Below are positions 1,145 through 25,307 of a stretch of DNA of 39,866 nucleotides, in pieces. Below the pieces are notes generated by a model. That model did not search any database. It had not been told where the DNA came from and was given only the letters and a program-made list of their open reading frames with translations. The stretch is taken from positions 1 to 39,866 of the forward strand of contig NZ_JADEWL010000058.1 in assembly GCF_015207665.1 (NCBI RefSeq), given 5' to 3'. The translations under genes and the position numbers were made by a program. Origin of the DNA: Plectonema cf. radiosum LEGE 06105 (GTDB lineage: Bacteria > Cyanobacteriota > Cyanobacteriia > Cyanobacteriales > Nostocaceae). Every line of letters begins with the position of its first letter. Within the stretch, counting starts at the first letter, position 1.

Positions 1145-1828
1145 TTGATGTTAAATTGTGAAAATATCGCAACTCACGTTCTCTGTGTAGACATCTGTAA
1201 TATACTGACGGGAATAAAACAAATGGGTGCGAAAATTTTTATCCAAAAAGGTTTTGTCAAAGCTTTCACTAACAAAGTCGCAAAAGGGTTTTATAATCTG
1301 TTTGAGATAGTTGATAATTGCTGTATTATTTTGACAAAATTCGTACCATTTTTAGCGGCTTGTGCAGTTTTTTTAAGCGTCTTAAGTTTGCACAATCCGA
1401 TATTATTATTTTGTTTGCTGTTAGGTAGTTTAATTGTAGTAGTAATGCAGCAAGTTTCCTGTAGGTTTAATTTACCGAAGCGTCAATTAATCGGATTGCA
1501 AATAATCGCGATCGCAATTGTTCTAACTGCATTTTGGTTGGATTATTTTGCAGCACCAGCCCAAGCACAATTTTTCGGTAAAGCTGAAGATTTTTTTCAG
1601 AACACTTTAACTCAAGGCTCTACGGATTCAGGTACTAGAGCCGCTGTGAGTTTAGTATTTAACGTTTTACGAGCGCTTTATTTACTTTACATTGCCGTCG
1701 CTTTAATTGGTGTAGTAAATGCAGTACGTAAAGATGAAGATTGGCAAAATATCGCTAGGACACCTTTATTAGTAGTTGTCGCTGTCACGATTGCTGATGT
1801 GTTAACTGGATTTATTATCGGTAGTTAA
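1145..1828 (+). CDS. VirB2/TrbC-like pilin precursor (candidate)
   Basis: A 227-residue membrane protein. Residues 1-135 include hydrophobic spans at about 66-80, 85-102 and 116-132. The third ends in APAQAQ, which looks like a signal peptidase I site after Ala141. The remaining ~86 residues have VirB2/TrbC pilin architecture: a short polar start, a hydrophobic helix (about 167-192), a polar loop with VRKDEDW, and a second hydrophobic helix (about 206-225). The order ahead of VirB3-like and VirB4-like genes matches VirB2. The long membrane-spanning leader is unusual, because VirB2 leaders are normally one short signal peptide. An alternative ATG lies at 1223 (Met27) behind a GGGA. The assignment rests on architecture and position, not clear sequence identity. 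Confidence 0.5.
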   Translation: MMLNCENIATHVLCVDICNILTGIKQMGAKIFIQKGFVKAFTNKVAKGFYNLFEIVDNCCIILTKFVPFLAACAVFLSVLSLHNPILLFCLLLGSLIVVVMQQVSCRFNLPKRQLIGLQIIAIAIVLTAFWLDYFAAPAQAQFFGKAEDFFQNTLTQGSTDSGTRAAVSLVFNVLRALYLLYIAVALIGVVNAVRKDEDWQNIARTPLLVVVAVTIADVLTGFIIGS

Positions 1829-1883
1829 ATCAGTTGACAGTTGACAGTGGACAGTGGTTAGTGAATAAGATTCAAGAAGCAAC

Positions 1884-1936
1884 CATCAACCAACAACCAT
1901 CAACCATCAACCATCAACCATCAACCATCAACTAAC
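1884..1936. repeat. CAACCAT heptamer repeat
   Basis: Five to seven copies of a 7-bp unit CAACCAT, with some degenerate. The tract ends just before the start codon of the VirB3-like gene, which has no other obvious ribosome-binding sequence. Confidence 0.85.
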
Positions 1937-1941
1937 AATTA

Positions 1942-2301
1942 ATGGATAAAGAATTTAGACCAGTAAATCAAATTTTAGGAACTCAACCTTCATTAGGTCC
2001 TCTTCCAGCAGACCAAATTTTTCCTTGGATGGTAATTGCGTTGGCTGCTTATTTTATTGTAAATGGAATTTTTGGTGGTCTTTTTAATGATGATTTTCAA
2101 AAGTGGTTGTGGACAGTTTTAATTGCTGGTTGGGGAATGGCTACTTGGTGGATATTAACGGGTGGTAGAAGTTGGCGTTTTTTAAGCAAGTTTATTGGTG
2201 TTCCTACTTGGACGAGAGGAATTGCACGTTATCAAAGTTTTTTGTCAGTAAACTATGAAGTCAAAAATCGGCAAAAAAAGCGTCGCAAACGTCGCAGGTA
2301 G
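1942..2301 (+). CDS. VirB3-like inner-membrane protein
   Basis: A 119-residue protein with two hydrophobic segments (about 28-48 and 55-74), as in VirB3/TrbD. It sits directly upstream of the VirB4-like ATPase, which is the conserved VirB3-VirB4 order. The C-terminus is extremely basic (KNRQKKRRKRRR). The last 47 bp overlap the ATPase gene in another frame, suggesting translational coupling. In type IV systems VirB3 anchors VirB4 at the inner membrane. Size, topology and position fit, but the family is too divergent to be certain by eye. Confidence 0.6.
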   Translation: MDKEFRPVNQILGTQPSLGPLPADQIFPWMVIALAAYFIVNGIFGGLFNDDFQKWLWTVLIAGWGMATWWILTGGRSWRFLSKFIGVPTWTRGIARYQSFLSVNYEVKNRQKKRRKRRR

Positions 2302-5005
2302 TACAGTTAGATTAACACCTTTTGAGGATGCTTTACATCTGGCAACAATGTTAAAGATATCTCTTGATGGTCGAGATGTTGGTGCTTATATTTTAAATAA
2401 GGGTAATAATAAAGATAGTTTTTCTTTTGTATTTGGTTTCGATTGTCGAGGAATTCACACTACTTTAAGACCAGAACAAATTGATACTATTTGTAATAAC
2501 ATTGAAGCAGGATTAAAAGATATTCCTGATGGTGAAAAACTGACGTTTCATTTGGGTTCCTTTACTCAAGAAAATCAACGGCAGCAAGAGTTAATAAGTT
2601 TAATTAAACAAGCTGCTTCGCCGAATATTAAATATTTATTGATGGCAGAACGTGCTAGGGTTAAAGAATTGACTCAAAGCGGTATTCGTAAGCCAAAATT
2701 TTTACGGATTTACGTTACCTATACTGTTGAACCAGATAGTACAAATACCGATGATTGGATTGAAAGGTTATTAGCTAAAGGTGAAAAATGGTGGTTAAAA
2801 TTTAAAGGAGATTTAACTGCAAGTCAGCATCAACGTATCGAAACTATTGTCAGAAGCGCTTATAAACAAGGTTTTCGTCGTTGGGAACAGCTTTTAGCTA
2901 ACAAAATGGGATTGGATATCAAACCGATGAATGTAAACCAACTTTGGAGTGAAATTTGGAGACGCTTTAACGATACTCAACCGATCGATATTCCTCAGTT
3001 GCTTACTTTGGATGAGAAGGGATTACAAGAACAGGTTTATTCCGATTTAGCTAGTACTAAATTATTAATTGACAATCTGCACAGTACAACTTTATTAATG
3101 GAAAGAGGGATACCCTGTGCCGATCGCAGTTGGGTTAATGTAAACAATCGATACGTTGGTGTGTTAACTTTTCTGGAAAAACCCGGAGGTTGGCAAAATA
3201 AATCATCACAGTTACGCTACCTTTGGGAATTAGTTGCAAGGGAAACTGTTGTCGATACAGAGATATTTTGTCAGCTGAGTGCAGCAAATCCAACCTTTGT
3301 GAAAACCACTCTGCAACGGGTTTTGAAGCAATCCAACATGACGGCAAGGTTGGCTGAAGAGAAAAGTAAAACTATTGATGTCAACGCTCAGTTGAAGTTA
3401 AGAAAATCAGTAGCAGCACAAGAACAGATTTATGAAGGTGCAGTTCCCATCTATACGAGTATTGCAATATTGGTGCATCGCAACAGCGTAGAAAAATTGG
3501 ATGAAGCTACAAGATATATTGAAAACTGTTTTCAACGTCCAGCGCAAGTTATTCGCGAAACGGAATATGCTTGGAAGATTTGGCTGCAAACTCTACCTAT
3601 TGTGTGGGAAGGTTTATTAGCGAAACCTTTTAACCGTCGTCAGCTGTATTTAACTAACGAGGTACCGGGTTTAATTCCTTTGGTGAAGACTAGGGAAGGT
3701 GATGGGAAAGGTTTTGAATTAATTGCGGAAGAAGGAGGAACACCGATACAGTTGGATTTATTCAACCAACATAAAAATTTAGCTTTATTTGCGACAACTC
3801 GCGCTGGTAAATCGGTATTGGTTTCGGGAATCCTCACTCAAGCTTTAGCTCATAATATTCCGGTGGTAGCTTTGGATTTTCCTAAACCTGATGGTACTTC
3901 TACTTTTACCGACTATACGCAATTTATGGAAAATTGGGGAGCATACTTCGATATTTCCAAACAATCGAACAATCTATTTGAACAGCCAGATTTACGGGCT
4001 TTGAGTTATGAGGAGCAAAAAGATAGATTTAGTGATTACGTGGCTTTTTTAGAATCAGCTTTGATGACGATGGTATTAGGTTCATCGGGGGAAAGTCAAC
4101 TTTTAACTCAAACAGTGCGATCAATTATTAACTTAGCGCTGAATGCATTTTTCAACGACGAAGGGATAAGGAAGAGATATGAAGATGCAATAAACCAAGG
4201 ATTTGGTTCTACAGCTTGGCAGAAGACACCCACCTTAAGAGATTTTCTCACATTTTGTTCACCAGAGCATTTAAATTTAGAAACTCAGGGTAGAAGAATA
4301 GAAGATGCTTTGAATCAAATTGATTTGCGGTTGCGATTTTGGTTATCGAGCAGAGTTGGACAAGCAATTTCCGCACCATCGAGTTTTCCTACCGATGCTC
4401 AACTGTTAGTATTTGCCTTGAGGAACTTATCCGATAGTGAAGATGCTGCGGTATTATCTTTAAGTGCCTATTCAGCAGCATTAAGAAGAGCATTGAGTAG
4501 TCCAGCGTCGATATTTTTCATTGATGAAGCACCGATTTTATTTGAATTTGACCAAATTGCCGATTTAGTAGGTAGAATTTGTGCTAACGGAGCAAAAGCA
4601 GGAATCAGAGTTATTTTATCAGCCCAAGACCCCGATACCATCGCCAAATCCAAAGCAGCATCGAAGATTTTACAAAACTTGACAACCAGATTAATAGGTA
4701 GAATTCAACCAGTTGCAGTTGATAGTTTTGAAAGTATTTTAAAATATCCCCGTGAAATAATTAGTCGCAATGCATCAGAAAGTTTCTTTCCTCGTAAAGA
4801 AGGAATTTACAGTCAATGGTTATTAGACGATAACGGGATTTATAGTTTTTGTCGTTATTATCCAGGTTACGAACAATTAGCAGTAGTGGCAAATAATCCC
4901 AACGAACAAACAGCGAGAAATCAATTTATGAAAACCCATGAAGATAAATATGAAGCCATTTCTGCATTTGCTCGTCAATTAGTAGCATCTTTAAGGAATC
5001 AATGA
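2255..5005 (+). CDS. VirB4/TraC-family type IV secretion ATPase
   Basis: A 916-residue ATPase and the best anchor for calling this cluster a type IV secretion-like system. A VirB4-type N-terminal domain of about 500 residues precedes the motor domain. The P-loop is ATTRAGKS (about 513-520), with Ala in place of the usual first Gly. Walker B is IFFIDEAP (Asp757-Glu758). It is followed by ILSAQDPDTI, like the sensor/Gln motif of VirB4/TraC/VirD4 ATPases, and then a conserved Thr-Arg stretch. VirB4 proteins energise assembly of the channel and pilus. The start at 2255 overlaps the VirB3-like gene. Its N-terminus (MKSKIGKKSV) has no TM segment, so it is probably cytoplasmic and membrane-associated through VirB3. 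The alternative is a TraC/TrbE-type ATPase of an integrative element. Confidence 0.85.
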   Translation: MKSKIGKKSVANVAGSTVRLTPFEDALHLATMLKISLDGRDVGAYILNKGNNKDSFSFVFGFDCRGIHTTLRPEQIDTICNNIEAGLKDIPDGEKLTFHLGSFTQENQRQQELISLIKQAASPNIKYLLMAERARVKELTQSGIRKPKFLRIYVTYTVEPDSTNTDDWIERLLAKGEKWWLKFKGDLTASQHQRIETIVRSAYKQGFRRWEQLLANKMGLDIKPMNVNQLWSEIWRRFNDTQPIDIPQLLTLDEKGLQEQVYSDLASTKLLIDNLHSTTLLMERGIPCADRSWVNVNNRYVGVLTFLEKPGGWQNKSSQLRYLWELVARETVVDTEIFCQLSAANPTFVKTTLQRVLKQSNMTARLAEEKSKTIDVNAQLKLRKSVAAQEQIYEGAVPIYTSIAILVHRNSVEKLDEATRYIENCFQRPAQVIRETEYAWKIWLQTLPIVWEGLLAKPFNRRQLYLTNEVPGLIPLVKTREGDGKGFELIAEEGGTPIQLDLFNQHKNLALFATTRAGKSVLVSGILTQALAHNIPVVALDFPKPDGTSTFTDYTQFMENWGAYFDISKQSNNLFEQPDLRALSYEEQKDRFSDYVAFLESALMTMVLGSSGESQLLTQTVRSIINLALNAFFNDEGIRKRYEDAINQGFGSTAWQKTPTLRDFLTFCSPEHLNLETQGRRIEDALNQIDLRLRFWLSSRVGQAISAPSSFPTDAQLLVFALRNLSDSEDAAVLSLSAYSAALRRALSSPASIFFIDEAPILFEFDQIADLVGRICANGAKAGIRVILSAQDPDTIAKSKAASKILQNLTTRLIGRIQPVAVDSFESILKYPREIISRNASESFFPRKEGIYSQWLLDDNGIYSFCRYYPGYEQLAVVANNPNEQTARNQFMKTHEDKYEAISAFARQLVASLRNQ

Positions 5006-5050
5006 ACAGTTATCAGTTAACAGTTAACAGTTAACAGTTATCAGTTATCA
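5003..5050. repeat. AACAGTT/TATCAGT heptamer repeat
   Basis: About six 7-bp units of AACAGTT with TATCAGT variants. They fill the spacer between the ATPase stop and the next start codon. Confidence 0.85.
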
Positions 5051-5057
5051 ACCAACT

Positions 5058-5834
5058 ATGAACAAAACATTTTTTTTTACAGTTTCACTTACATTAATAA
5101 CCTTGCCAGCAACCGCTCAATTAGGTAATGTTTGGACAGATTTTCAGAATTACGCCATCGATTTACAAAACTATCTCAAAGATAATATATCAGATACATT
5201 GCAACCTGTAGAGTCAGAAACTCAAATTGCGATCGACAGCTTTAATGGAGAATTAAATATCCCCAATCCGGTTGCTGTGAGGAAAAGTTTAAATGACGAT
5301 ATTACAATTAATTCCTTATCAGATAATTTTGAGAATAATCCAGCAGTAAACGCTAAATTAGTTGGAAACGAAATTGATAGACAACTTACTCGTGGTATTG
5401 CGGTAGGAATTTTAGGAGAAGAAGCACAGATACGTTCAAGAAATAAATTAGAAAGTATTGATACGTCAATTGATTTCACAACACAAATCGCTCAACAAGC
5501 ACGACAAAGTTCAAATAATCTATTAGATAATCTTACAGAGTTAGGTAGTAATTTTAATCCATTATCATCATTAACTAATCGGAATCAATCAGAATTAGTT
5601 AAATTGCAATCACAAAGTATTCAAATAGAAAGCGAACAATCAAAAATGATTGGAGATAATCTAGCTCAAACAATGCAGTTACATCAAACATTGCAATATT
5701 CTAACTTGAATTTAGCTAATATTTCTCAAGAAATAGAAGAAACAAATCGCGCTAGAAGAGTCAACACATCCGCAGAAGCCGCAAGACTTTTAAGAACTAC
5801 TTCTCAAGTTGATTTAATTGGAAGGAAAAAATAG
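5058..5834 (+). CDS. Exported helical protein in VirB5/TrbJ position
   Basis: A 258-residue protein with a clear Sec signal peptide. It has Lys3, a hydrophobic core FFFTVSLTLITLP, and cleavage after ATA at residue 20. The mature part is polar, Gln/Asn/Ser-rich and predicted helical, with a coiled-coil-like tail (about 170-240). It has no cysteines and no recognisable catalytic motif. VirB5 and TrbJ are periplasmic or pilus-tip helical proteins of similar size encoded between VirB4 and VirB6. The gene here sits exactly between those two homologues. The identification is positional and architectural only. Confidence 0.5.
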   Translation: MNKTFFFTVSLTLITLPATAQLGNVWTDFQNYAIDLQNYLKDNISDTLQPVESETQIAIDSFNGELNIPNPVAVRKSLNDDITINSLSDNFENNPAVNAKLVGNEIDRQLTRGIAVGILGEEAQIRSRNKLESIDTSIDFTTQIAQQARQSSNNLLDNLTELGSNFNPLSSLTNRNQSELVKLQSQSIQIESEQSKMIGDNLAQTMQLHQTLQYSNLNLANISQEIEETNRARRVNTSAEAARLLRTTSQVDLIGRKK

Positions 5835-5837
5835 TTG

Positions 5838-5864
5838 TAGAGACGTAGCACTGCTACGTCTCTA
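5838..5864. repeat. GTAGAGACG palindrome, copy 1
   Basis: A perfect inverted repeat with 13-bp arms (TAGAGACGTAGCA) around one central base. It lies just after the stop of the VirB5-position gene. Related palindromes occur near 10740 and 16427. It could act as a weak terminator or mRNA-stabilising hairpin, but no T-run follows. Confidence 0.8.
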
Positions 5865-5939
5865 GAGTTATGAGTTAATAATAGAAGATTAATCATAAAC
5901 TCAAAGAAACGCTGAGGTTCACGTAAAGTAATAACCACA

Positions 5940-6003
5940 GAATCCGGGTTTTTACAATAATTATCTGTAACAGCAAAAAACACTCATAAAAACCCGACTT
6001 CTT
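5940..6003. repeat. Small mobile-type repeat with GAAGTCGGGTTTTT-like ends, copy 1
   Basis: A ~64-bp element starting GAATCCGGGTTTTT and ending AAAAACCCGACTTC, so its ends form an imperfect inverted repeat. The middle carries ATTATCTGTAACAG. Relatives lie at 22165-22226 and 24668-24730, with half-copies elsewhere. It resembles a non-autonomous palindromic repeat. Confidence 0.75.
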
Positions 6004-6049
6004 ACCCGACATATACCAATCCTTTATCATTTAAATTTATAATCCAAAA

Positions 6050-7081
6050 ATGTTATTAGCACAAATTGGTATCAATGAAATTTTAAAAGATGGTGCAACT
6101 ACAGCACAAAGTATTGCTGAAGGTTGGGATAAACAATGGGTGGATTTGTTGCAAAATAACACCAATAATAATTTGTATGGAGCGCTAACTAATTTAGGTG
6201 TATTTTTTGCGGTTGGTACTTTACTAATTTTTATGACCCAATGGTTAAAAGATACCATAAATAACGATTATTCCCGCCCCATATCAGATTTAATTTGGCC
6301 TTTTATTGTAGTGTTATTTTTAGCTAATACTGGCAATGGAACTGTATTATCAAACTTAACTTTAGGAGTACGAAATTTTGTTAATGGTATTAACCAACAA
6401 GTAGTGGAATCAACTGATGTCAATCAGACTTATCAGCAAGCAATTAATATGAGTATTGCCGAAGATGTGGTAGGTTCTTTTTTACGTCCCTGTCAATCTT
6501 TGAATGGGGAACAGCAAAGACAGTGTTTTGTCAAAGCTACAGAAAAAAGTGATATTTTATGGCAAGAATATAGAAATTTATACGGTAATAAACCCTGGAT
6601 AAATCGATTAGAAAATCAAGTTAATCAAATTACTTTAGGAACTGGTATTTTATCGGAAGAAGCATTTAATTCTTTAATTGGTTCCACCTTCCAAGTTACT
6701 ATCAAAAACTTTTTAATTTCTCTGCAATCAGCTTTTCAGAACTTGATAGAAGCTACAATGTTATTAATAGCAGCTTTAGGTCCTTTAGCGGTGGGTGGTT
6801 CATTATTACCAGTAGCAGGTAAACCGATTTTTGCCTGGTTGACGGGATTTTTCTCCTTGGGAATTGCTAAAATTTCTTTCAACATTATTGCCATATTAAC
6901 AGCATCTGTAATCGTAAATAGTCCAGCGCAAAATCTTAATACCAATCCTGATTTAATGTGGTTTATCATCTTCCTAGGAATATTAGCCCCTCTTCTATCT
7001 CTAATAGTATCTGCTGCTGGAGGATTTGCTGTATTTAGCGCTATTAATAATACTGCTTCCTGGGTAAAAGAAAGAGTGTGA
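6050..7081 (+). CDS. VirB6/TrbL-like polytopic membrane protein
   Basis: A 343-residue protein. The N-terminal ~45 residues are polar. Several hydrophobic helices follow, at about 46-62, 78-92, 229-256, 260-290 and 300-330. A long soluble loop (about 100-225) has two cysteines in FLRPCQSLNGEQQRQCF. A central or C-terminal block of closely packed TM helices rich in Gly/Ala (AALGPLAVGGSLLPVAG) is typical of VirB6/TrbL inner-membrane channel components. It follows the VirB5-position gene, as in classic virB/trb operons. The ATG at 6050 is preceded only by AT-rich sequence. The assignment is good at superfamily level. Confidence 0.65.
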   Translation: MLLAQIGINEILKDGATTAQSIAEGWDKQWVDLLQNNTNNNLYGALTNLGVFFAVGTLLIFMTQWLKDTINNDYSRPISDLIWPFIVVLFLANTGNGTVLSNLTLGVRNFVNGINQQVVESTDVNQTYQQAINMSIAEDVVGSFLRPCQSLNGEQQRQCFVKATEKSDILWQEYRNLYGNKPWINRLENQVNQITLGTGILSEEAFNSLIGSTFQVTIKNFLISLQSAFQNLIEATMLLIAALGPLAVGGSLLPVAGKPIFAWLTGFFSLGIAKISFNIIAILTASVIVNSPAQNLNTNPDLMWFIIFLGILAPLLSLIVSAAGGFAVFSAINNTASWVKERV

Positions 7082-7123
7082 ACAACACTGAGTGAGGAGT
7101 TAGGAGTGAGGAGTTATGAATTT

Positions 7124-7157
7124 CAACCTTTAACCTTTAACCTTTAACCTTTAACCT
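7124..7157. repeat. CCTTTAA heptamer repeat
   Basis: Five units of the 7-bp CCTTTAA, ending within 8 bp of the next start codon. The tract directly precedes the first VirB8-position gene. Confidence 0.85.
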
Positions 7158-7161
7158 GCTC

Positions 7162-7962
7162 ATGGTGCGTTTGTTAGAAAAACGAAAACGAAAAGGAAAT
7201 CTTTTAGTAACCATTGCTGTCATAACCTTTGGTTTACATTTATTAACTTTAGTTTTATTAATAATTCAAGGGTTGACTATTCGCCAATTAAGTGTTCAGA
7301 AAACTCCTACTTTTGTACAGTTAATTGACGGAAAACCTGTAAATAATAATGACGAATTGCAGCGAAAACCCGAATTAATTAGCGAATTCGTGAGTAAAAC
7401 GATGATATCCATGTTTAATTGGACTGGAAAATTACCAGCACAAAATATAAATCAATTTAGTAAGCCAAAACAAGATTTAGGAATACCAATTAAAACTCCC
7501 CAAGGTGGAAGTAAAAAAGTTACTACAAGTAGTTGGATATCTAGCTTTGCTTTTTCAGAAGATTTTCGTAAAGGTTTTTTAGCTACGGTAGCTGAATTGA
7601 CTCCACCAGAAGTTTTTTCTAGTAATTCCGAGCAAGTAATATCAGCACAATTAAATATTACTAGAATTTATCCTCCGCAACAAATTGAACGGGGTAAATG
7701 GAGAGTGGGAATCGTTGCGAATCTGGTTCAAAGACGCAGTAATGATAAACAAATAGTTACACCATTTAATAAAGATATTTTCGTCCAAGCAATAGATACT
7801 TTTGATTACCCAATTACAGAAAATCTTACTGACTTACAACAAGCAATTTACGCAACTCGCAGTGATAAATTAGAAATTTACGAAATTCGAGATTTATGTT
7901 TGACAGATCGATATGACAATCTAGCTACAGACGGATTTAATCGTTGTCAAAATCGGCGATAA
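7162..7962 (+). CDS. VirB8-position membrane-anchored protein, paralogue 1
   Basis: A 266-residue bitopic protein. It has a short basic cytoplasmic start (EKRKRKG), one TM helix (about 16-36, ending VLLIIQGL) and a large periplasmic domain. The sequence after the TM (TPTFVQLIDGKPV) matches the next gene (PQILVQLADGRVI), as do the TM itself (FGLHLLTLVLL against FALHFLTLILL) and the later motif GKWRVGIV/GKWKVEIL. The two are therefore tandem paralogues. One TM plus an alpha/beta periplasmic domain before VirB10 is the VirB8/TrbF plan (NTF2-like fold). That fold is inferred, not demonstrated. Confidence 0.55.
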   Translation: MVRLLEKRKRKGNLLVTIAVITFGLHLLTLVLLIIQGLTIRQLSVQKTPTFVQLIDGKPVNNNDELQRKPELISEFVSKTMISMFNWTGKLPAQNINQFSKPKQDLGIPIKTPQGGSKKVTTSSWISSFAFSEDFRKGFLATVAELTPPEVFSSNSEQVISAQLNITRIYPPQQIERGKWRVGIVANLVQRRSNDKQIVTPFNKDIFVQAIDTFDYPITENLTDLQQAIYATRSDKLEIYEIRDLCLTDRYDNLATDGFNRCQNRR

Positions 7963-8027
7963 TTCAATGATTTTATGAATTAATTTGCGATCAAGTTAGC
8001 ATCGACTGTTAAGATTTCCCTAAAAAA

Positions 8028-8726
8028 ATGCAAACCCTAAATACAGATAAAAATCAAACTAATATCGTCCCCTTGTTCGCGATCGCAACATTTGCCTTAC
8101 ATTTCTTGACTTTGATTTTACTGATGTTTCACGGGGGAATGTTACAGCAAGTTAAGCGTAAATCTGTACCCCAAATTTTGGTACAATTAGCAGATGGTCG
8201 AGTTATCACCGCTGATGCTACGAGTAATTTGGAACGCGATATGCCGAAAGCATCTAGCTTCGCTAATCGGCAAACAATTCGCCGTTTTGTAGGTGAAACT
8301 ATGACTTTAATGTTTACTTGGTCGCAAAAACAATCATCAACGGTAGTTTGGAATATTACTTCTGAATTATTAAGAAATGATTTTCAGCGGAAATTTGCTC
8401 AGAGATTTAATAACTTTGAGTTAGAAAGTCCCGAAGAAAATGTTTTAGTAATTCAAAGGATTTCTCAACCGGAAGTAATTTCCGAAGGAAAATGGAAAGT
8501 TGAAATTTTAGGCAATCGTTTAATTTTTAGTCGGGGTGATAATTTAGGTAAGTCAGTTCCTTTTAACAAACAAATTTTCGTTGAAGCTATAGATGAAGTA
8601 AATTCTTTACCAAATATTCCAACTCCTTTAAATTTAGCAGTTTACCGACTCGGAGAAGCCAGAATACAAATTTATAATATTTGTGATATTGAAGATAAAA
8701 GCTGTTATGAAAATAAAGATATTTAA
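8028..8726 (+). CDS. VirB8-position membrane-anchored protein, paralogue 2
   Basis: A 232-residue protein with one TM helix (about 14-36) and a periplasmic domain. It is paralogous to the preceding gene through the TM segment, the VQLADGR strand, a FVGETMTLMFTW helix (against FVSKTMISMFNW), GKWKVEILG and PFNKQIFVEAID (against PFNKDIFVQAID). The conserved Met/Trp-containing helix followed by Trp-Arg/Lys-Val strands suggests a VirB8-like assembly factor. It lacks a ~35-residue insertion found in paralogue 1. Two VirB8-like subunits in tandem could form a hetero-oligomer. Confidence 0.55.
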   Translation: MQTLNTDKNQTNIVPLFAIATFALHFLTLILLMFHGGMLQQVKRKSVPQILVQLADGRVITADATSNLERDMPKASSFANRQTIRRFVGETMTLMFTWSQKQSSTVVWNITSELLRNDFQRKFAQRFNNFELESPEENVLVIQRISQPEVISEGKWKVEILGNRLIFSRGDNLGKSVPFNKQIFVEAIDEVNSLPNIPTPLNLAVYRLGEARIQIYNICDIEDKSCYENKDI

Positions 8727-8873
8727 GAAGATGAGAATTTTCAATTTACTGTGATGATTTTTTATATTTTTTACATTTTTTATATTTCGTATATTTTTTT
8801 ATATATATAATTAATATTTTATTTGATATTTTTTTTAATTAAATTAACTTTTGAAATTATTTATTCTCCATTC

Positions 8874-8939
8874 CCAATTACCAATTACCAATTACCAATT
8901 ACCAATTACCAATTACCAATTACCAATTACCTATTCCCT
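8874..8939. repeat. CAATTAC heptamer repeat
   Basis: Eight to nine units of CAATTAC (with CTATTCC at the end) directly before the VirB10-like start codon. A very AT-rich stretch (8755-8830) precedes it. The frame stays open through the repeat and would add ITNYQLP repeats to the protein. I treat that as non-coding. Confidence 0.85.
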
Positions 8940-8942
8940 ATC

Positions 8943-10580
8943 ATGACTAAATACTCAACATCATCCCAAAATACTCAAACTGGACTTACCGAATGGGAAA
9001 TGCGGATGGCAAAATTGGTTGGTTTGGATGAACCCATACCCTCAGAAATGGGAATGGAAGATGCATCAATTACAAATGTAAATCCTCAAACAGATGAACT
9101 CAATAACAACGTCACTTCACAACCACTTTCGGCTAATCCCTTCGCTAAAGCCGGTTTAGTGGCTGCTGCAACCTTGGCTGTAGTTATGTTTGCTGGTGGA
9201 TTTTTATCTCAATTAATGAGTAACGATACAAAACCGACACAAAACACCATCGCTACCCCAATCTTACCCCAACCCGAAACCAAACCCCGTCAGCAACAAT
9301 TAGAAGAACAAGTCGAAGGGTTGAAAACCAAACTAGCACTTTCCCAACAACTCGAAGCGGTAAAATCTGCACAAGAAAAGCTCAGAATGGTTAAGCCTAC
9401 ATCATCAACACCTTCCATAGCAGCTAAACCAACTCCCGAAATTCAACCGCAAACTATTCCCCGTGACGCATCCATGTCGATGATTCGTCCCAAACCTCAA
9501 ACACCACCAACACGCATTGTTGAGGTACCTAGAATCGTCACAGTTGAGCGTATTGTTAATGTCCCGCAATCCACAAATGACAGTGGAAGTATATCGCGTT
9601 CAGCTATGCTGTCTCGATCGCAACCCAAAAAATCCCCATCAGAGCAACAGGAAGTATTACCAATATTACCACCCGCACCAACCCCACAACCCCTAGTAGA
9701 AATCGCACCACCAGAACCTAATCCGATGCAAGAATGGGCAAGGTTAGCAAAATTAGGTAGTTACGGACAGGTATCTCTGAGCGAAAAACAGACTGTCAAC
9801 AATCGAACATCACCCTCACAAGTTGCAGTTGAAAGAGATGTGAAAGAGAAAGAAACTCAAAGTAAGCCTGTTATAGAAACACGAACCCGTACAGTCACAA
9901 AATCAGTCAGAAGAAATCCTCAAACAATCCCAGTAGGGAACAGTGCGAAAGCCATATTAACTACAGCAATCTACGGTGAAACTACCAAATCAGACAGAGA
10001 AGATACTGAAAATAGTAATAGCAATAACGTTTATGTAGTAAGTTTAAAACAAGCCCTAAAAGCCGCTGACGGTACGGTAGCACTACCGATAGGAAGCCAA
10101 ATATTAACCAAAATTGATTCTATCTCTGAAAACGGTTTAATGCAGTTAGAAATAGTCAAAATTATGATGCGAAAAAATGGTGAAATTGCAGAAAAAAACG
10201 TACCCCAAAACGCGCTGATGATTCGTGGTAAAAATGGTAAACCATTAATAGCTAATCAATATTCTAACAGTGGTTCATCTATGGCTCTGATGGATGCGGA
10301 ATTATTTGCTTTAGGGGGATTAGGTAAAGCAGCAGAAATAATTAACCGTACCGAATCTCAAGTAGTCACCGGAGAAAATGGTACAGTAGCCGTCACCAAT
10401 GTCAACCGTAATCCCAGTACGGCTGCTGCTATATTAGAAGGCGGAATGAAAACCGTAATTCCACAAATTACCCGCCGCAATCAACGAGCTATGTCTGAAA
10501 TGTCCCGTAAAACAAACATTTGGTTTTTACCTCCGGGCAAAGAAGTTGAAATATTTGTCAATCAAGAAACAGAATTTTAA
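8943..10580 (+). CDS. VirB10/TrbI-like envelope-spanning protein
   Basis: A 545-residue protein if it starts at 8943 (MTKYSTSSQ). The open frame reaches 8823 only through heptamer repeats. The plan is VirB10/TrbI: cytoplasmic N-terminus, a single TM (about 66-88, AATLAVVMFAGGF), a coiled coil (about 115-147), a long Pro-rich periplasmic linker (about 150-320), and a conserved C-terminal domain from about residue 335. That domain holds AILTTAIYGET, then ALPIGSQILTKID, matching the IPqGSrl strand of VirB10, and LEIVKIMMRKNGEI. VirB10 bridges the inner membrane and outer-membrane core. This is the second-strongest identification in the cluster after the ATPase. Confidence 0.75.
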   Translation: MTKYSTSSQNTQTGLTEWEMRMAKLVGLDEPIPSEMGMEDASITNVNPQTDELNNNVTSQPLSANPFAKAGLVAAATLAVVMFAGGFLSQLMSNDTKPTQNTIATPILPQPETKPRQQQLEEQVEGLKTKLALSQQLEAVKSAQEKLRMVKPTSSTPSIAAKPTPEIQPQTIPRDASMSMIRPKPQTPPTRIVEVPRIVTVERIVNVPQSTNDSGSISRSAMLSRSQPKKSPSEQQEVLPILPPAPTPQPLVEIAPPEPNPMQEWARLAKLGSYGQVSLSEKQTVNNRTSPSQVAVERDVKEKETQSKPVIETRTRTVTKSVRRNPQTIPVGNSAKAILTTAIYGETTKSDREDTENSNSNNVYVVSLKQALKAADGTVALPIGSQILTKIDSISENGLMQLEIVKIMMRKNGEIAEKNVPQNALMIRGKNGKPLIANQYSNSGSSMALMDAELFALGGLGKAAEIINRTESQVVTGENGTVAVTNVNRNPSTAAAILEGGMKTVIPQITRRNQRAMSEMSRKTNIWFLPPGKEVEIFVNQETEF

Positions 10581-10728
10581 AAAACTTAGGAGTCAGGAGT
10601 TTTGAATATATTATTTTACATTTAATAGAAAATTATGTTAACTATCAATCAAGATAGAATTAAAAATTGATGTTAGCGAATCATTTTAATAGTATTTTGC
10701 GGGATGATCTATACATATCAAAATACTG

Positions 10729-10753
10729 GGAGACGTTGCACTGCAACGTCTCT
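10729..10753. repeat. GTAGAGACG-type palindrome, copy 2
   Basis: Inverted repeat GAGACGTTGCA-C-TGCAACGTCTC, related to the one at 5838-5864 but with compensated arm changes (GTTGCA/TGCAAC instead of GTAGCA/TGCTAC). It lies between the VirB10-like gene and the last cluster gene. An ATTT/GTTT-rich repeat follows up to 10815. Confidence 0.8.
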
Positions 10754-10839
10754 ACACAATTTATTTATATATCATGATTATTTATTTGTTTATTTGTTTA
10801 TTTATTTATTTTGAACTATTAACTTTTTGAAAATTTCCG

Positions 10840-11379
10840 ATGAAAAAAACGCTCAATCTGTCCCTCGGTTCCCTAATGTTTTCCGCAACAAGTATATTAA
10901 TAGCAAGTGCTGTATTAGCAAATAATGCCGTTTTACGTTCAATATTTTCCTGTCAAGCTCAGGGTTTGGGGGGTGCAATTCCGAGTATTAAAGTTTGGTA
11001 TCAACAAGGTACAAATTTAAGCTTTATTCCCGCAGAAGAAACAATCAAAAAAGTCTGGTTAGATGACCCATCACAAGTTACTCTAGATTTTGATGGTCCC
11101 ATGTGTGTGCAATTTGGAGAAGAAAACGCTAACACAGCAGATTGTGAAAACTCCGCAGCAAGTGTAATTCACCTCAGAAGAATCGAAAAACTTGATATTC
11201 CTGGACTCCCAAATACAGATAATACACTTTTAACGGTAATTACAGAAACAAATAGTAAAAAAAGACTCTATACATTCCGAGTAATATATCAAGAAGGTAG
11301 TCCCGAATATAATACTTTAGCAGTATTTGCAGACCCCCCGAATTTCGGAGAAACACCATGTGTAAGAGTTGAAGAGTGA
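10840..11379 (+). CDS. Exported protein, possible VirB9/TraK-like subunit
   Basis: A 179-residue protein with a signal peptide. It starts MKKTLNLSLG, then a hydrophobic core, and is probably cleaved after AVLA at residue 27. Mature cysteines are Cys38, 89, 102 and 174. The mature part is beta-rich: IKKVWLDDPSQVTLDFDG, then VIHLRRIEKLDIPG, LLTVITET and RLYTFRVIY. A start resembling 'I..v.LddPs', followed by strands and a 'LTVIT...YTFRV' segment, recalls the N-terminal domain of VirB9/TraK/TrbG outer-membrane-complex proteins. It would supply the missing partner of VirB10. The family link is weak, and a cyanobacterium-specific exported protein is equally possible. It converges with the ABC exporter remnant, 23 bp away. 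Confidence 0.45.
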   Translation: MKKTLNLSLGSLMFSATSILIASAVLANNAVLRSIFSCQAQGLGGAIPSIKVWYQQGTNLSFIPAEETIKKVWLDDPSQVTLDFDGPMCVQFGEENANTADCENSAASVIHLRRIEKLDIPGLPNTDNTLLTVITETNSKKRLYTFRVIYQEGSPEYNTLAVFADPPNFGETPCVRVEE

Positions 11380-12761: not shown

Positions 12762-12947
12762 ATGTTATTGAACATGAATTTATCTCCAAAAGCAATTAGA
12801 TTTATTCTTGAAGCATTAGAGTTTAGGATTGCTGCTTATCATCAACAGTTAGAGATAGAAGGAATGAAAAAATCGTTTATTACACCTATAGTTGGTGCCA
12901 AAGTGAGACGTAACAGTGTACATAGGTACAGTTTTAATTACAGGTGA
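12762..12947 (+). CDS. Small ORF, possible broken partner of the toxin tail
   Basis: An ORF of about 61 residues begins at ATG 12762, 2 bp after the previous stop (an in-frame TTG at 12756 is also possible). The first ~35 residues (LSPKAIRFILEALEFRIAAY) read as a natural helical small protein. The last part (KVRRNSVHRYSFNYR) is unlike it and may be out of frame after a small deletion. It overlaps the end of the DUF5615 gene on the other strand by 10 bp. The tight spacing suggests it was co-transcribed with the toxin fragment, as an antitoxin or immunity partner. I recognise no family with certainty. Confidence 0.4.
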   Translation: MLLNMNLSPKAIRFILEALEFRIAAYHQQLEIEGMKKSFITPIVGAKVRRNSVHRYSFNYR

Positions 12948-13291
12948 GCAGTAATTGAATCACGACTCATTTCAATATAGGAGTGACTCTCAAATAATTT
13001 AACTAAAGCTTTTAAGTTAGCTGCAAATAATGCTTCTAATTCTAAGTTATTAATATTACCTGTTGTTATAAGTAATAATTTAAACGGTTCTTGAATCGTT
13101 AAAAAAGAATTTAAAAAATCAGAATCCTTCGTAATTAATATGCGCTCATCTCCTATTGATATCGCGTTAATTTCTATATCTGATGTAGCATTTCGATTAG
13201 GCAAATCTCTTGTATGAATTGTATCATAACCCGCAAATTCTAGGAATCGAGCAAGTCGAGCAGGTAATTGGGCATCAACCAGAAATCTCAT
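12938..13291 (-). CDS. DUF5615 PIN-like toxin
   Basis: A 117-residue protein with the DUF5615 (PIN-like, Mut7-C-related) layout. The N-terminal strand MRFLVDAQLP has the conserved Asp, then HTRDLPNRNATSDIEI, a central RILITKDSDF with acidic residues, and a C-terminal helix. Such proteins are presumed ribonuclease toxins paired with DUF433 antitoxins. The start codon overlaps the upstream DUF433 stop by 4 bp (ATGA), so translation is coupled. Length is normal for the family and no damage is visible. Confidence 0.85.
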   Translation of the reverse strand: MRFLVDAQLPARLARFLEFAGYDTIHTRDLPNRNATSDIEINAISIGDERILITKDSDFLNSFLTIQEPFKLLLITTGNINNLELEALFAANLKALVKLFESHSYIEMSRDSITAHL

Positions 13292-13524
13292 GAAGCAATT
13301 TTGTGTATACTTTTAACTTGGCTAAGACGCACAGCAAATTGCAGAGCCGCAAAAATATCTTCCCGCTCTAAATCGTCATAATCTGCTAAGATTTCATCTG
13401 GTGTCATGCCTGCGCTAAGTAATTCCAGAATCAATTCTACAGGATAACGAAGTCCTCTTATACAAGGCTTGCCGTGACAAATTTCGGGATTGTAGGTAAT
13501 GCGTTTTAAAAGGTTACTGCTCAT
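13288..13524 (-). CDS. DUF433 antitoxin
   Basis: A 78-residue protein starting MSSNLLKRITYNPEICHGKP. It carries the DUF433 signature CHGKPCIRGLRYPVELILELL and SAGMTPDEILADYDDLERED, a winged-helix-type DNA-binding domain found in antitoxins paired with DUF5615. The ATG at 13524 is chosen because homology begins there. The frame stays open to 13662, but those extra residues look like antisense noise. The gene is upstream of and overlaps the toxin, so the two form one operon. Autoregulation is usual for such pairs but is not shown here. Confidence 0.85.
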   Translation of the reverse strand: MSSNLLKRITYNPEICHGKPCIRGLRYPVELILELLSAGMTPDEILADYDDLEREDIFAALQFAVRLSQVKSIHKIAS

Positions 13525-13648
13525 AGTGTTATTTTTGTAAATCATACGTTTGTTGATATATTCTAAGTGATTCAGTGGGGAATTTTCGAGAGACAGCGGG
13601 TTTAGCAAGAAATTAAGGAAGAGGGAATAAAAGAGGGCGATCGCGCGA

Positions 13649-13804
13649 ATGGCAGTTCTCAAGCTGGCTGGTGGTGGTATGTTTGACGTAGTAATCGCTC
13701 AGGCTGCTTTGAAGGTTGGTGTGGATTATCTTGTTACGCTCAATCCTAAAGATTTTGTTCGGTTGGGAGATGAAATTGCGGCTTTCGTGAAAGTCCCTGA
13801 GTAA
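13649..13804 (+). pseudogene. C-terminal stump of a PIN-domain protein
   Basis: A 51-residue open frame encoding LAGGGMFDVVIAQAALKVG, then YLVTLNPKDFVRLG. This is the C-terminal part of a PIN (VapC-like) ribonuclease: the Asp of GGMFD and the TLNPKDF strand are characteristic. The first two-thirds, including the first catalytic Asp and the central Glu, are absent. A stop codon lies in frame 21 bp upstream of the ATG. It is therefore a relic of a third toxin-antitoxin module in this strip. Confidence 0.75.
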
Positions 13805-14774: not shown

Positions 14775-16388
14775 TCAAAGTTTTTGCATAAGAATGTGAT
14801 ATCCTATACCCCATGCCCAATTTCCCATACCCAATCCTAATAAAACCCAACATAACCAATCACCCCAACGTACATATAAAGTTTGGGTTTTTCGTCGATA
14901 AATAGTTTCTGCGTGGGTTTCGTAAGTATTATGTCCCGATATCCACAATGTTCTCCCGTGGGGATTGACAAATGCTGAATATCCTGTATTAGTAGCTCTT
15001 GCTGCCCATCTATCATTTTCAATGGCTCGCATGGTATCCTGAGCATGATGCTGAAATTGCATTGCTGCACTATAAGGGTCGTTATTAGAAGCTGTGAGAA
15101 TAAACTCTCCACCCTTCTGGGTTTGATTACGAAATTGTTCCGCAAAGGCTGATCCGTAACAAATCCCAACGATAGCTCTACCAAAAGGTGTTTCCACAAT
15201 CTGGTTTGATTTTCCTGGTATTTGTCTTGCGGTTATGGGAGATAATCGATTAATAATACCGCCTAAAATATTTTCAAAAGGAATGTATTCTCCTAAAGGT
15301 ACCAGTTTTTCTTTATCGTAATGGCTATAAATTTCACCTTCACCTGTAAAAGTAAATAAACTATTGGTATATCTACCTTTTCCCTGACGTTTATAACCTC
15401 CAACCCAAGCTAAAACGCCTTTTTCTCGCACTGCTGTAATCAACGGACTTTGAATAATCTCATCTTCAAAAAAAGGTAACGCACCTTCTGGAGTTAAAAC
15501 TGCTTCTACACCTCGATCAACTAAATCCAAGTAACCCTCGGTATAATTTTTGATGATGCGCTGGTTCCCTTGGGATTTAAATTTGATTCGATTGGGAATA
15601 TTTCCCTGAACAATTCCTACTTTTAAAGCAGTTGCCGACGGTTGGGAAAGGGGACGAGAATACAAGCCAAAACCGATTAAATGAGAAAAGATAAATAGCG
15701 CGATCGCAATTATTCCCAATTGCTGAAAACTTTTGATATTTTGACTTTTAGTTTCTTCTAATACTGGTATTTTATTTTTTTTACCATAATCTACAACGGA
15801 AAAGCGAGCAATTAAAGCTTCTGCTAACAACCCATTAACCGCAACTATTACCGCCGTTACCGCTGTTGGTCCGGAAATTTGACCCAAATGTAAAATTACT
15901 AAATTATGCGGTGATTGTGTGTAAGAAAGCGAACTCCACCACAAAGGTCCGGCACTCCAAACTCTTTCTAAAGCACACCAAATAGCTGTACCAATCAGAA
16001 CGCGAATCAAACTATTTTGAGTTGAAAATATCCTGAGTAATTTAGACCAAAGTATAACTAATAAACCTCCCCAAAAGGAGATAAACAACCAAGCAAATAA
16101 AGCTATGGCGATGCTTCCCAACCACGGAACACCCAACCAAGTCAAAGGATGAAGTCCCGTAATCCAATACAAAGCGGTTCCGTGATAACCCAAACCCCAT
16201 AAGAGAGAGGGAGAGAGAGTTTTATGTTTTGGGGTTACGACTATTATCCATAGGGGAATCAAAGCAAACCATGCTAAAAACCAAGCACCCACAGGAGCGA
16301 CGGTTAACCCCATTACAATCCCACTTGTTAAAGCAATTATTGGTTTTGAGTTGCGAGTTATGAATTTGGTAAAAATATTAGATTTCAT
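14775..16388 (-). CDS. lnt: Apolipoprotein N-acyltransferase
   Basis: A 537-residue inner-membrane enzyme that adds the third acyl chain to the N-terminal Cys of lipoproteins. The N-terminal half holds about seven TM helices (including 18-50, 92-120 and 223-243). The C-terminal half is a nitrilase-like domain starting at LKVGIVQGNIP (about 255). The catalytic triad is visible: Glu301 in LTPEGALPF, Lys361 in DKEKLVPLGEY and Cys410 in VGICYGSAF. A last TM lies near 514-530. Length is close to E. coli Lnt (about 512). It lies 84 bp downstream of gyrA on the same strand, with a palindromic repeat between them. Confidence 0.95.
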   Translation of the reverse strand: MKSNIFTKFITRNSKPIIALTSGIVMGLTVAPVGAWFLAWFALIPLWIIVVTPKHKTLSPSLLWGLGYHGTALYWITGLHPLTWLGVPWLGSIAIALFAWLFISFWGGLLVILWSKLLRIFSTQNSLIRVLIGTAIWCALERVWSAGPLWWSSLSYTQSPHNLVILHLGQISGPTAVTAVIVAVNGLLAEALIARFSVVDYGKKNKIPVLEETKSQNIKSFQQLGIIAIALFIFSHLIGFGLYSRPLSQPSATALKVGIVQGNIPNRIKFKSQGNQRIIKNYTEGYLDLVDRGVEAVLTPEGALPFFEDEIIQSPLITAVREKGVLAWVGGYKRQGKGRYTNSLFTFTGEGEIYSHYDKEKLVPLGEYIPFENILGGIINRLSPITARQIPGKSNQIVETPFGRAIVGICYGSAFAEQFRNQTQKGGEFILTASNNDPYSAAMQFQHHAQDTMRAIENDRWAARATNTGYSAFVNPHGRTLWISGHNTYETHAETIYRRKTQTLYVRWGDWLCWVLLGLGMGNWAWGIGYHILMQKL

Positions 16389-16472: not shown

Positions 16473-19178
16473 TTATTCTTCCGTTTCTACAACATGATCT
16501 GCTGGTTCTATAACAATTGTATCGGTCACTTCTACAGCATCTCCATCAGATAATTCTTCTGATTCTTCACTATTATCAGCGGGAACTACTGCAACTCCGT
16601 TAATAAAATCTTCATCATCAAGACGCTGTACCCTTACTCCAGTAGCAGAACGTGATTGGATGGAAATGGCATTTACTGCCTGCCGGATAATGATACCGCG
16701 ACTCGTGACCATCATAATTTCATTTTCTTCACTAACAATGCGTAAAGTTGCTAAATGGTCTTGAGTTTTACGGTTTTTGAACTTGGTTGCCATTAAACCT
16801 TGTCCGGCGCGATTTTGCAAGCGGAATTGGGCTACTGGTACCCGTTTTCCATATCCTCCCGTAGTAATAACTAATACCCAAAGCCCGGAATTACTATTAT
16901 CCGCAATTTCTACAGCTTCAGGATTATCTGCATCTTCGATTTCAGTTGTTTCGGTTTCAATTGCTTCAATTTCGGTTGCTTCAACTTCAATGGCTTCGGT
17001 TTCAGCTTCTATTGCTGGTGCGATGTTATTCAGAATATCTGCTGGAAGAACATCCATTCCTACCAATTCGTCGCCACCTTTACGCAACTTCATGGCTTTT
17101 ACTCCACGAGTCGCTCTACCCAAAGGACGTAATTGTGAGTGAGTGCAGCGGAAATGAATCGCCATACCCATGCGAGAACCGATAATTACACTATCTTCTG
17201 CTTTCGCACGACGTACCCAGCGCAATTCATCCCCTTCTTCTAAGGAAATGGCAATCAAACCGTTGGCTCGAATATGACTAAAGGCAGCTAAGGCAGTTTT
17301 CTTGATATAGCCACCCTTAGTGAGCATTACCAAATATTCATCTTGGCTAAATTCGCTGACGGGTACAATCGAGGTAATTTTTTCTTCTCTAGGAATCGGT
17401 AGCATTTGTACTATGGGTGTACCCCTACTGGTGCGGGAACCCAAGGGTAATTGATAAGCCCTCAAGCAATAAACTACACCACGTTCGCTGAAGAATAAAA
17501 TACTATCATGGTCGCAACAAGTTAAGAAATGCTCAATGTTGTCATCATCTTTAACTTTAGCTGCGGCTTTACCTCTGGTAGCACGGCTTTGCGCTTCAAA
17601 GGTATTAACCGGCATCCGTTTGATATAACCTTGCTGAGTCAGTAAAATTATCGCTTTTTCATTGGCAATTAAGTCTATATCATCTAAATCCCCTTCCTTG
17701 TGGGTAATTACCGTGCGGCGGGGTGTAGCGTGTTTTTCTCTTAATTGCTTAACTTCGGTTTCAATAATTTCTAATATTCGTTCTCTGCGAGCCAGAATAT
17801 CTTGTAAATCAGTTATTTGAGCCTGTAAAGAATCGTGTTCTAAACGAATTTTATCAGCTTCCAAAGCTGTCAAACGGCGTAACTGCATTTGTAAGATTGC
17901 GTCGGCTTGCGCTTCCGATAATCCATAGTTACTAATTAATTCTCCCTTCGCCGTCGGTGCATCCGCAGCATGACGAATCAAGGCAATAATCTGGTCTAAA
18001 TGGGACTGCGCGATTAACAAACCTTGTAAAATATGGTCTCTTTCTTCCGCTTTCCGCAACTCATAGCGTGTGCGTCTGGTAATCGACTCAATGCGGAAAT
18101 CTAAGAAAACCTGCAAAAACCGCTTCAATGTTAGTAAAATGGGTTCTCCATTTACTAACGCAAGCATATTTGCACCAAAATTCGCTTGCAGTGGCGTTAA
18201 CTTGTATAAATTATTTAAAACCACGCGGGGATAAGCATCGCGCTTGAGTTCTATAACAACTCGCATCCCATCGCGATCGCTCTCATCCCGGATATCAGAA
18301 ATCCCGTCAATGCGTTTATCGTTAACTAACTCGGCAATTTTTTCAATTAATGCCGCTTTATTAGTTTGATAAGGCAACTCGGTGATAATGATTGCTTCTT
18401 TTTCCTGTCTTCCCCGCTGTTGAAGAGTCTCAATACTCGCTACTCCGCGCATGGTAATCGAACCGCGCCCGGTAGTGTAAGCTTCCTTAATCCCTGAAGT
18501 ACCGAGGATTTCAGCACCCGTCGGGAAATCGGGGCCTTGAATATATTTATTTAATTCAAGATCGGTAATTTCCGGATTATGAATTAGGGATACTAATCCG
18601 TCGATCAATTCTCCCAAATTATGAGGCGGGATATTAGTCGCCATCCCCACCGCAATCCCAGAAGAACCATTTAATAGTAACTGCGGTAGCCTTGCTGGTA
18701 AAACCGTAGGTTCCTGTTGTGAACCGTCGAAGTTATCGGCAAAATCGACAGTTTCCGATTCGATATCTTGCAGTAGAGCGTCAGTAGTTAAAGATTGTAG
18801 GCGGCATTCAGTGTAACGCATAGCCGCCGGAGGGTCGTTATCAACACTTCCGAAATTACCATGCCCCGAAATTAAAGGCGACCTCATCGAAAAACTTTGC
18901 GCCATCCGCACCAAAGCATCGTAAACAGCCGTATCACCGTGGGGGTGGTACTTACCCAACACCTCCCCCACAACACGGGCGCACTTACGGAAAGGGCGGT
19001 CTGCCGTCAACCCCAACTCGTGCATAGCGTAAAGAATGCGACGATGCACAGGCTTCAGACCATCCCTGGCATCTGGCAAAGCGCGACCGACAATCACGCT
19101 CATCGCATATTCCAGATAAGACCTGGACATCTCGTTTCGCAGATCCGTCGGGATTATCCGCTCCTGAGAGGTTGTCAT
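16473..19178 (-). CDS. gyrA: DNA gyrase subunit A
   Basis: A 901-residue type IIA topoisomerase subunit that cuts and rejoins DNA during negative supercoiling. The N-terminal breakage-reunion domain has [19 protein letters not shown] and [17 protein letters not shown]. The catalytic Tyr122 lies in AAMRYTECR. Residues 83 and 87 (E. coli quinolone positions) are Thr and Asp. The C-terminal beta-pinwheel follows from about residue 500. The canonical GyrA box is replaced by [12 protein letters not shown], which I recall from other cyanobacterial GyrA proteins. An acidic Glu/Thr/Ile/Ala repeat of about 40 residues (about 722-761) interrupts the pinwheel, and the tail is also acidic. ParC is the alternative, but the length and N-terminus favour GyrA. 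Confidence 0.93.
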
Positions 19179-24662: not shown

Positions 24663-24667
24663 GGTTA

Positions 24668-24730
24668 GAAGTCGGGTTTTTATAATCATTGTCTGTTAGT
24701 ACAGATATTTACCTTAAAAACCCAATTTCT
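24668..24730. repeat. Small mobile-type repeat with GAAGTCGGGTTTTT-like ends, copy 3
   Basis: A ~63-bp element starting GAAGTCGGGTTTTT just after the nucA stop and ending AAAAACCCAATTTCTG. The core CTGTTAGTACAGA is palindromic. It sits between the convergent nuclease and inhibitor genes and could serve as a bidirectional terminator-like hairpin. Confidence 0.75.
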
Positions 24731-24776
24731 GTGATATTCAACTATCAACTATCCCTCATCCATCATCAACTAATTA

Positions 24777-25187: not shown

Positions 25188-25225
25188 AATTAATATCAAA
25201 TCCGTTAGCATCGAAATTATATATT

Positions 25226-25269
25226 TTGAACGCAGAGGAACGCAAAAATAAGCGCAGAGGAACGCAGAT
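25226..25269. repeat. Direct repeat of the CGCAGAGGAACGCA type
   Basis: Two near-identical copies of GAACGCAGAGGAACGCA/AAGCGCAGAGGAACGCA in the leader of nuiA. A similar word (CGCAGAGACGCAGAG) recurs near 35303. Confidence 0.7.
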
Positions 25270-25307
25270 TTTTTTTTCATCACTTTCGTTCTACTGACTT
25301 TTTAATA

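Follow-up and report, generated by a model that had tools for sequence, protein, structure and literature searches.

A domesticated-looking type IV secretion operon of heterocystous cyanobacteria, probably linked to phosphate starvation in many lineages

Bordetella Ptl and Brucella VirB each have a VirB core without a coupling protein and handle periplasmic substrates. More generally, some protein-secreting type IV secretion systems (T4SSs) lack the type IV coupling protein and secrete from the periplasm, and the accessible text of the same source associates only the mating-pair formation (MPF) types MPF_I and MPF_T with protein secretion (PMC4793230). In cyanobacteria, the MPF_C type and T4SSs without a relaxase (MOB-less) are already known as classes: Guglielmini et al. 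counted both in 2011 (PMC3158045), and the MPF_C reference, pCC7120alpha, carries virB4 as alr7206 and virD4 as alr7213 (PMC8600333), as far as the text consulted in these papers goes. Here we analyze a stretch of Plectonema cf. radiosum LEGE 06105 (the window; the entire contig C32, 39866 bases, of a 7.6-Mb draft genome) in which nine genes make up a T4SS-like operon. On balance, our comparisons favor an MPF_C-type T4SS that works as an organelle of the cell rather than as a conjugative element and that is tied to phosphate starvation in many lineages.

All nine open reading frames (ORFs) of the original prediction were present on the plus strand, occupying 1145-11379 (ORF list of the window) in the order B2-B3-B4-B5-B6-B8a-B8b-B10-X, where X is the ninth gene. 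The comparison set for gene identities consisted of nine plasmid operons; the MPF_C plasmids compared include Nostoc TCL26-01 pTCL26-01_B and Calothrix NIES-22 plasmid4, pCC7120alpha itself being known by description only. Each window gene paired one-to-one with the plasmid MPF_C gene in the same position at a probability of 99.9 to 100 (hhalign on family alignments, those of the first four genes including one plasmid-type row, from C305), which agrees with the near-classical virB/trb order proposed before. The ATPase and VirB10, which had been called recognizable, were the only two products matched by public profiles in hidden Markov model searches. The VirB4/TraC ATPase (2255..5005) bears the Walker A string ATTRAGKS and gave NCBIfam matches to TIGR00929 (E = 1.4e-14) and TIGR02746 (E = 7.9e-13) that fall far below the curated cut-offs, and VirB10/TrbI (8823..10580; its true start is probably at about 8943, judging from the sequence) matched PF03743 above the cut-off (E = 4e-11). 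The remaining seven genes had no match to public T4SS profiles. Alignments A3, A4, and A7 matched no T4SS family in Pfam or NCBIfam, PDB profile searches with five alignments returned nothing useful, nor did VirB4 match any PDB entry at 0.01.

The other seven genes were therefore named from their plasmid counterparts. The VirB2-like pilin candidate (1145..1828) matched the first gene of the plasmid MPF_C operons (probability of 100); its conserved part begins at about 1223, which is probably the true start. The VirB3-like small membrane protein (1942..2301) matched the plasmid gene preceding virB4 (probability of 100), the VirB5-position protein (5058..5834), predicted to be helical, matched the gene following virB4 (probability of 99.9), and the VirB6-position membrane protein (6050..7081) matched its plasmid counterpart (probability of 100). 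VirB8 is a single-copy gene in each of the nine plasmid records compared (L139, L140, and L150-L156) and is doubled in the window: VirB8-position protein a (7162..7962) matched the single plasmid gene in that position, and its tandem paralogue, protein b (8028..8726), matched both protein a and the plasmid gene, all at a probability of 100. The "9-like" label of the last gene, X (10840..11379), stood as far as position goes, since X is a homologue of the plasmid gene after virB10 (hhalign E = 1e-57); its structural side fared less well. The protein had no Pfam match, 2/30 relatives gave a weak match to DUF4138 (E = 0.067), TraN came up at E = 0.19, and its low-confidence model (mean pLDDT of 53.5) gave a weak hit in Foldseek to a core chain of Dot/Icm (E = 8e-3, probability of 0.96) among many immunoglobulin-fold matches, so that structural support for the label is weak. 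Because this model and the all-helical, low-confidence model of the fifth protein (mean pLDDT of 57.6) are poor, their fold matches serve as leads only.

The locus differs from the plasmid MPF_C systems, whose homologous genes run in the same order from VirB2 to the gene after VirB10, in having two VirB8 proteins, a mostly chromosomal location, a separate VirB4 group, and neither VirD4, gene Y, nor a nearby relaxase. The usual plasmid order is B2-B3-B4-B5-B6-B8-B10-X-Y-VirD4, and the window lacks the last two genes. As had been claimed for the flanks, no VirD4, relaxase, or integrase was found among the 20 Pfam-scanned ORFs of the 27 of at least 120 amino acids outside the operon (shorter ORFs were unscanned). 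VirD4 was likewise found in 0/98 chromosomal-type loci (including five pairs with identical VirB4 sequences) in the flanking DNA examined, some loci being short contigs, and gene Y occurred among them only in L057, a 69% outlier. Since the window is a whole contig, only 1.1 kb lies left of the operon; relatives with the same left neighbor (L059, L060, and L131) showed no VirD4 further left in the DNA examined.

At the genome level, VirD4 (PF02534, E ≤ 0.01) was not detected in 7/15 carrier genomes, namely G270 (a single contig), G168 (5 contigs), and five drafts. All seven also lacked a MOBV relaxase match, and a plasmid VirD4 query found no match in 8 of the 10 genomes tried, all seven included; the PF02534 protein of G279 is a strong match but a different one. 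Over 16 carriers, MOBV was absent from 10; MOBP and MOBF, which MPF_C plasmids can also carry, were not searched genome-wide. In having no detected coupling protein in these carriers, two of them with at most 5 contigs, the locus resembles coupling-protein-independent protein-secretion T4SSs. It differs from them in being of the MPF_C type, outside the two types associated with protein secretion in PMC4793230.

The operon is widespread in the window's family. VirB4 was found at E ≤ 1e-50 in 94/291 genomes (an even sample of the order), and 15 of those 94 carry it at ≥75% identity; 13 of these 15 belong to the 29 genomes listed for the family of the window. A wider search of that family gave a VirB4 match at 1e-200 in 184/217 genomes, and at least 149/217 (the distinct genomes among the matches listed) carry VirB4 at ≥78% identity; this fraction probably exceeds 13/29 owing to the greater weight of large genera. 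In genus g5, with genomes of 4 to 6 Mb, 1 of at least 16 genomes had a match among the matches listed. The best 80 of 92 loci in a scan of named genomes came from Nostoc, Calothrix, Rivularia, Scytonema, Tolypothrix, Fischerella, Chlorogloeopsis, Mastigocoleus, and others, with rearranged copies in a Snowella metagenome-assembled genome and in Gloeothece. The window genome itself has four VirB4 genes, those of the window, C103 (75%), C305 (62%), and C46 (38%), and the C103 copy is a complete operon without the ninth gene.

The locus is chromosomal in most cases checked: contigs of 6.0 to 7.9 Mb hold 8/15 fetched loci, although Gloeothece PCC 7822, a member of the chromosomal VirB4 group, has it on an 880-kb plasmid record. 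The window contig is chromosomal as well, judging by its gene content: Pfam scans place on it gyrA and lnt together with two clpP genes, pgk, and the gene for a DNA polymerase III delta-prime subunit.

Comparison of synteny revealed a gene set that is kept together. For the gene count, we used the 64/80 named loci in which virB4 is preceded by at least 1.2 kb and followed by at least 8 kb and dropped the 16 that were too short. All eight core genes were present in 63/64 loci and the ninth gene in 54/64, and in 62/64 each of the eight genes was a single frame no shorter than 70% of the median length. Of the long chromosomal-type VirB4 proteins, 95/96 have the Walker A string. The median ratio of nonsynonymous to synonymous substitutions over the nine genes ranged from 0.08 (VirB4) to 0.36 (VirB10) in random pairs of near-full-length copies (those >15% off the median length were dropped); by this measure, the operon is retained under purifying selection. 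The two loci that fall short are Nostoc T09, which has a deletion, and L059, whose virB10 is split over two frames. In Richelia intracellularis (L119, 100-6000), the operon is in pieces, with virB4 in three and virB5, virB6, and virB8a in two each.

In a quick VirB4 tree of 122 rows, 96 chromosomal-type rows fell on one side of a branch with an SH-aLRT support of 100, 25 plasmid or other rows lay outside this group, and L057 stood beside it with a support of 96 (unrooted, without VirB4 of other MPF types, and leaving out chromosomal rows of 850 amino acids or less). L057 (G165 C124), with two VirB8 genes and both X and Y still in place, may be an intermediate form. Against plasmids, VirB4 had matches in 114 records; among the 60 listed, all are cyanobacterial, one at 74% and the other 59 at 38 to 61% identity. 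The locus has both a VirB4 of the cyanobacterial clade and the type-specific gene set in order, which place it in MPF_C. A plasmid collection types L058, L140, L151, L152, L154, and L156 as MPF_T; their operons are of the cyanobacterial type. Judged from the alignments, the chromosomal and plasmid operons share a common descent, and we infer, the tree being unrooted, that the chromosome captured the operon from a plasmid early in heterocystous cyanobacteria. Downstream lnt and gyrA recur in Richelia SL_2_1, PCC 7702, Chlorogloeopsis PCC 6912, and Fischerella PCC 7414; different sites are common to further lineages, which means that the operon has moved as well.

Given that the gene set is conserved and under purifying selection, that VirB4 forms its own clade, and that some carriers show no VirD4, the locus looks like a domesticated, coupling-protein-free T4SS. 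Together with the chromosome-size contigs, these observations support the proposal that it is a dedicated apparatus and not a conjugative element.

The upstream neighborhood points to phosphate. PhoX (PF05787), PhoD (PF09423), or a PstS-like PF12849 protein is encoded upstream in 29/98 loci (12 with PhoX, 5 with PhoD, and 14 with PstS, of which one is a weak match of 85 amino acids). Genomes have 1.9 PhoX matches on average, a density that predicts 0.28 PhoX over the 1031 kb of flank. When loci were grouped by upstream sequence into 25 clusters, PhoX lay within 6 kb upstream in 9/25 (0.08 expected at one locus per cluster), at 437 to 950 bp in seven of the nine; two of the nine also have PhoD, and one further cluster, the largest, has PstS. 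The C103 paralogue in the window genome has PhoX 885 bp upstream. No phosphate genes were found downstream, where less DNA was available.

Putative binding sites gave a concordant signal. The SphR-type box is described, in the part of the source consulted, as three 8-bp repeats with 3-bp linkers (PMC1906773). We scored Pho boxes with a matrix from published boxes, which replaced a first scoring with hand-set weights, against first-order Markov resamples (50 to 100 per sequence for box scores and 200 for TTAA pairs). Upstream of virB2, putative SphR-type boxes reached P ≤ 0.05 in 9/25 cluster representatives and P ≤ 0.01 in 7/25, versus 14/120 and 2/120 control flank genes (Fisher P = 0.005 and 6e-5, respectively). 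The neighboring PhoX genes, the positive control, had a box in 10/10, and plasmid MPF_C operons had a significant box in 0/8. Four other repeat spacings gave 1 to 2 of the 25 clusters at 0.05, leaving the signal at the 11-bp spacing only, and TTAA pairs 11 bp apart occurred in 10/25 versus 1.8 expected (z = 6.4; the next best spacing, 22 bp, had a z of 2.4). The C103 copy has a box at P < 0.01 with the published matrix. Because phosphatase genes adjoin the operon and SphR-type boxes precede it above expectation, the operon is probably part of the phosphate-starvation response in many lineages, a link that is statistical in nature.

Several observations weigh against this interpretation. In the window itself, the Pho box score of the promoter is not significant (P = 0.125; P = 0.24 for its cluster representative), the flanks examined for the 7 loci of its cluster contain no phosphate gene, 16/25 clusters are without a significant box, and 15/25 are without a phosphate neighbor. 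Five of the nine best boxes are in minus-strand orientation, and the C103 box had a P value of 0.06 with the first hand-set weights. The clusters also share ancestry, by-eye merging of shared flanks leaving about seven; of the 12 PhoX loci, 2 are duplicates and one is a 133-amino-acid fragment; and a PstS-like neighbor is weak evidence given how common such PF12849 proteins are, with 4 to 12 in each genome. A term search of a Nodularia phosphate-limitation RNA sequencing paper found no mention of secretion or VirB, the presence of the locus in that strain being unchecked. As for the missing coupling protein, the seven carriers without VirD4 include five draft genomes in 50 to 240 contigs.

If the locus is a secretion organelle, substrates would be taken from the membrane or periplasm without a coupling protein, and export would be energized by VirB4 and use the VirB10 channel, delivering the substrates either outside the cell or onto a surface filament. 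The cargo may, speculatively, be folded proteins exported by the twin-arginine translocation (Tat) pathway, such as the neighboring PhoX or PhoD phosphatases. The fullest form of this idea is that heterocystous cyanobacteria made a conjugation machine into a phosphate-starvation export organelle, which would display or release periplasmic, Tat-exported, folded PhoX and PhoD outside via the MPF_C channel as the first protein-secretion T4SS of that type; we put it forward tentatively, as a rather doubtful extension.

The phosphate link would also fit a DNA uptake machine like Helicobacter ComB, with DNA serving as a phosphorus source or for recombination. ComB also has neither VirD4 nor VirB11, so that a gene set without a coupling protein resembles it, and a nonspecific nuclease gene and its inhibitor lie 12 kb from the operon in the window. 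However, ComB belongs to a different MPF family and, to our knowledge, has no VirB5 and no doubled VirB8, and cyanobacterial transformation uses type IV pili. No tie to competence genes was noticed here either, none being recognized among the recurrent flank families (most of them not Pfam-scanned), and the nuclease gene at 23856 has no Pho box. We consider DNA uptake unlikely.

The locus could instead serve as a contact-dependent weapon, or in host interaction, by injecting effectors into neighbors, grazers, or symbiotic partners. Richelia intracellularis, in which the operon lies in pieces, is a diatom symbiont, and the near absence of matches in genus g5 would fit this reading as well. On the other hand, the killing T4SSs that we know of use VirD4 for effector recruitment, and no effector-immunity pair was seen among the recurrent flank families in a check by eye. 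Protein secretion was proposed for MOB-less T4SSs by Guglielmini et al., who name cyanobacteria and grazers in the text at hand (PMC3158045). Taken together, we regard effector injection as improbable.

More remote is the possibility that the locus helps resident plasmids and receives VirD4 and relaxase in trans. The window genome does have VirD4 and MOBV relaxases on other contigs; its plasmids carry VirD4 and could thus provide it in trans, which also counts against a coupling-protein-free organelle. Nevertheless, 7/15 carriers show no VirD4 and the plasmid operons compared possess MPF sets of their own, making this role very unlikely. Plasmid-type MPF_C genes with VirD4 were seen on three contigs of this genome (L141-L143; G000 C289, C261, and C262) and MOBV relaxase matches on five. 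Least plausible of all is a relic of an integrated conjugative element that is decaying after the loss of VirD4 and relaxase, to which the clear kinship with plasmid MPF_C and the few broken or rearranged copies (L059, L072, L119, and L123) would point and which the full-size frames in 62/64 loci, purifying selection, and a gyrA site common to several families disfavor.

Elsewhere in the window, lnt (14775..16388, minus strand; PF20154 and PF00795) and gyrA (16473..19178, minus strand; PF00521) are recurrent chromosomal neighbors and not parts of the machine, with homologous neighbors in L059, L083, L124, and L134 and, for lnt, also in L111. Two small minus-strand ORFs that overlap (12938-13662) separate the operon from lnt and resemble what we take to be a DUF433/DUF5615 toxin-antitoxin pair. 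The nonspecific nuclease gene (23856-25283; PF01223) adjoins that of its inhibitor, NuiA, which lies on the opposite strand. Gaps in the operon contain two small palindromic repeats that resemble each other (5838-5864 and 10730-10752). No Rfam match was found in the window, and a promoter scan of it gave fewer sites than in shuffles.

The original prediction knew of no characterized system of this kind. This claim needs qualifying, since MPF_C and MOB-less cyanobacterial T4SSs had been counted, the latter sharing with our locus a VirB4 without a relaxase; the locus itself is not described, and no conservation or phosphate link is given, in the text of that survey available to us (PMC3158045). 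We found no description of the conserved chromosomal lineage, the doubled VirB8, the absence of VirD4, or the phosphate link in the open-access literature searched. If our interpretation is correct, a large and ecologically important cyanobacterial family shares an envelope machine, protein-secreting T4SSs extend beyond the two types credited with this activity in the text consulted (PMC4793230), and a conjugation system has been domesticated in free-living phototrophs. The machine would then be a candidate route for phosphatases across the cyanobacterial outer membrane, and the phosphate link makes its function testable.

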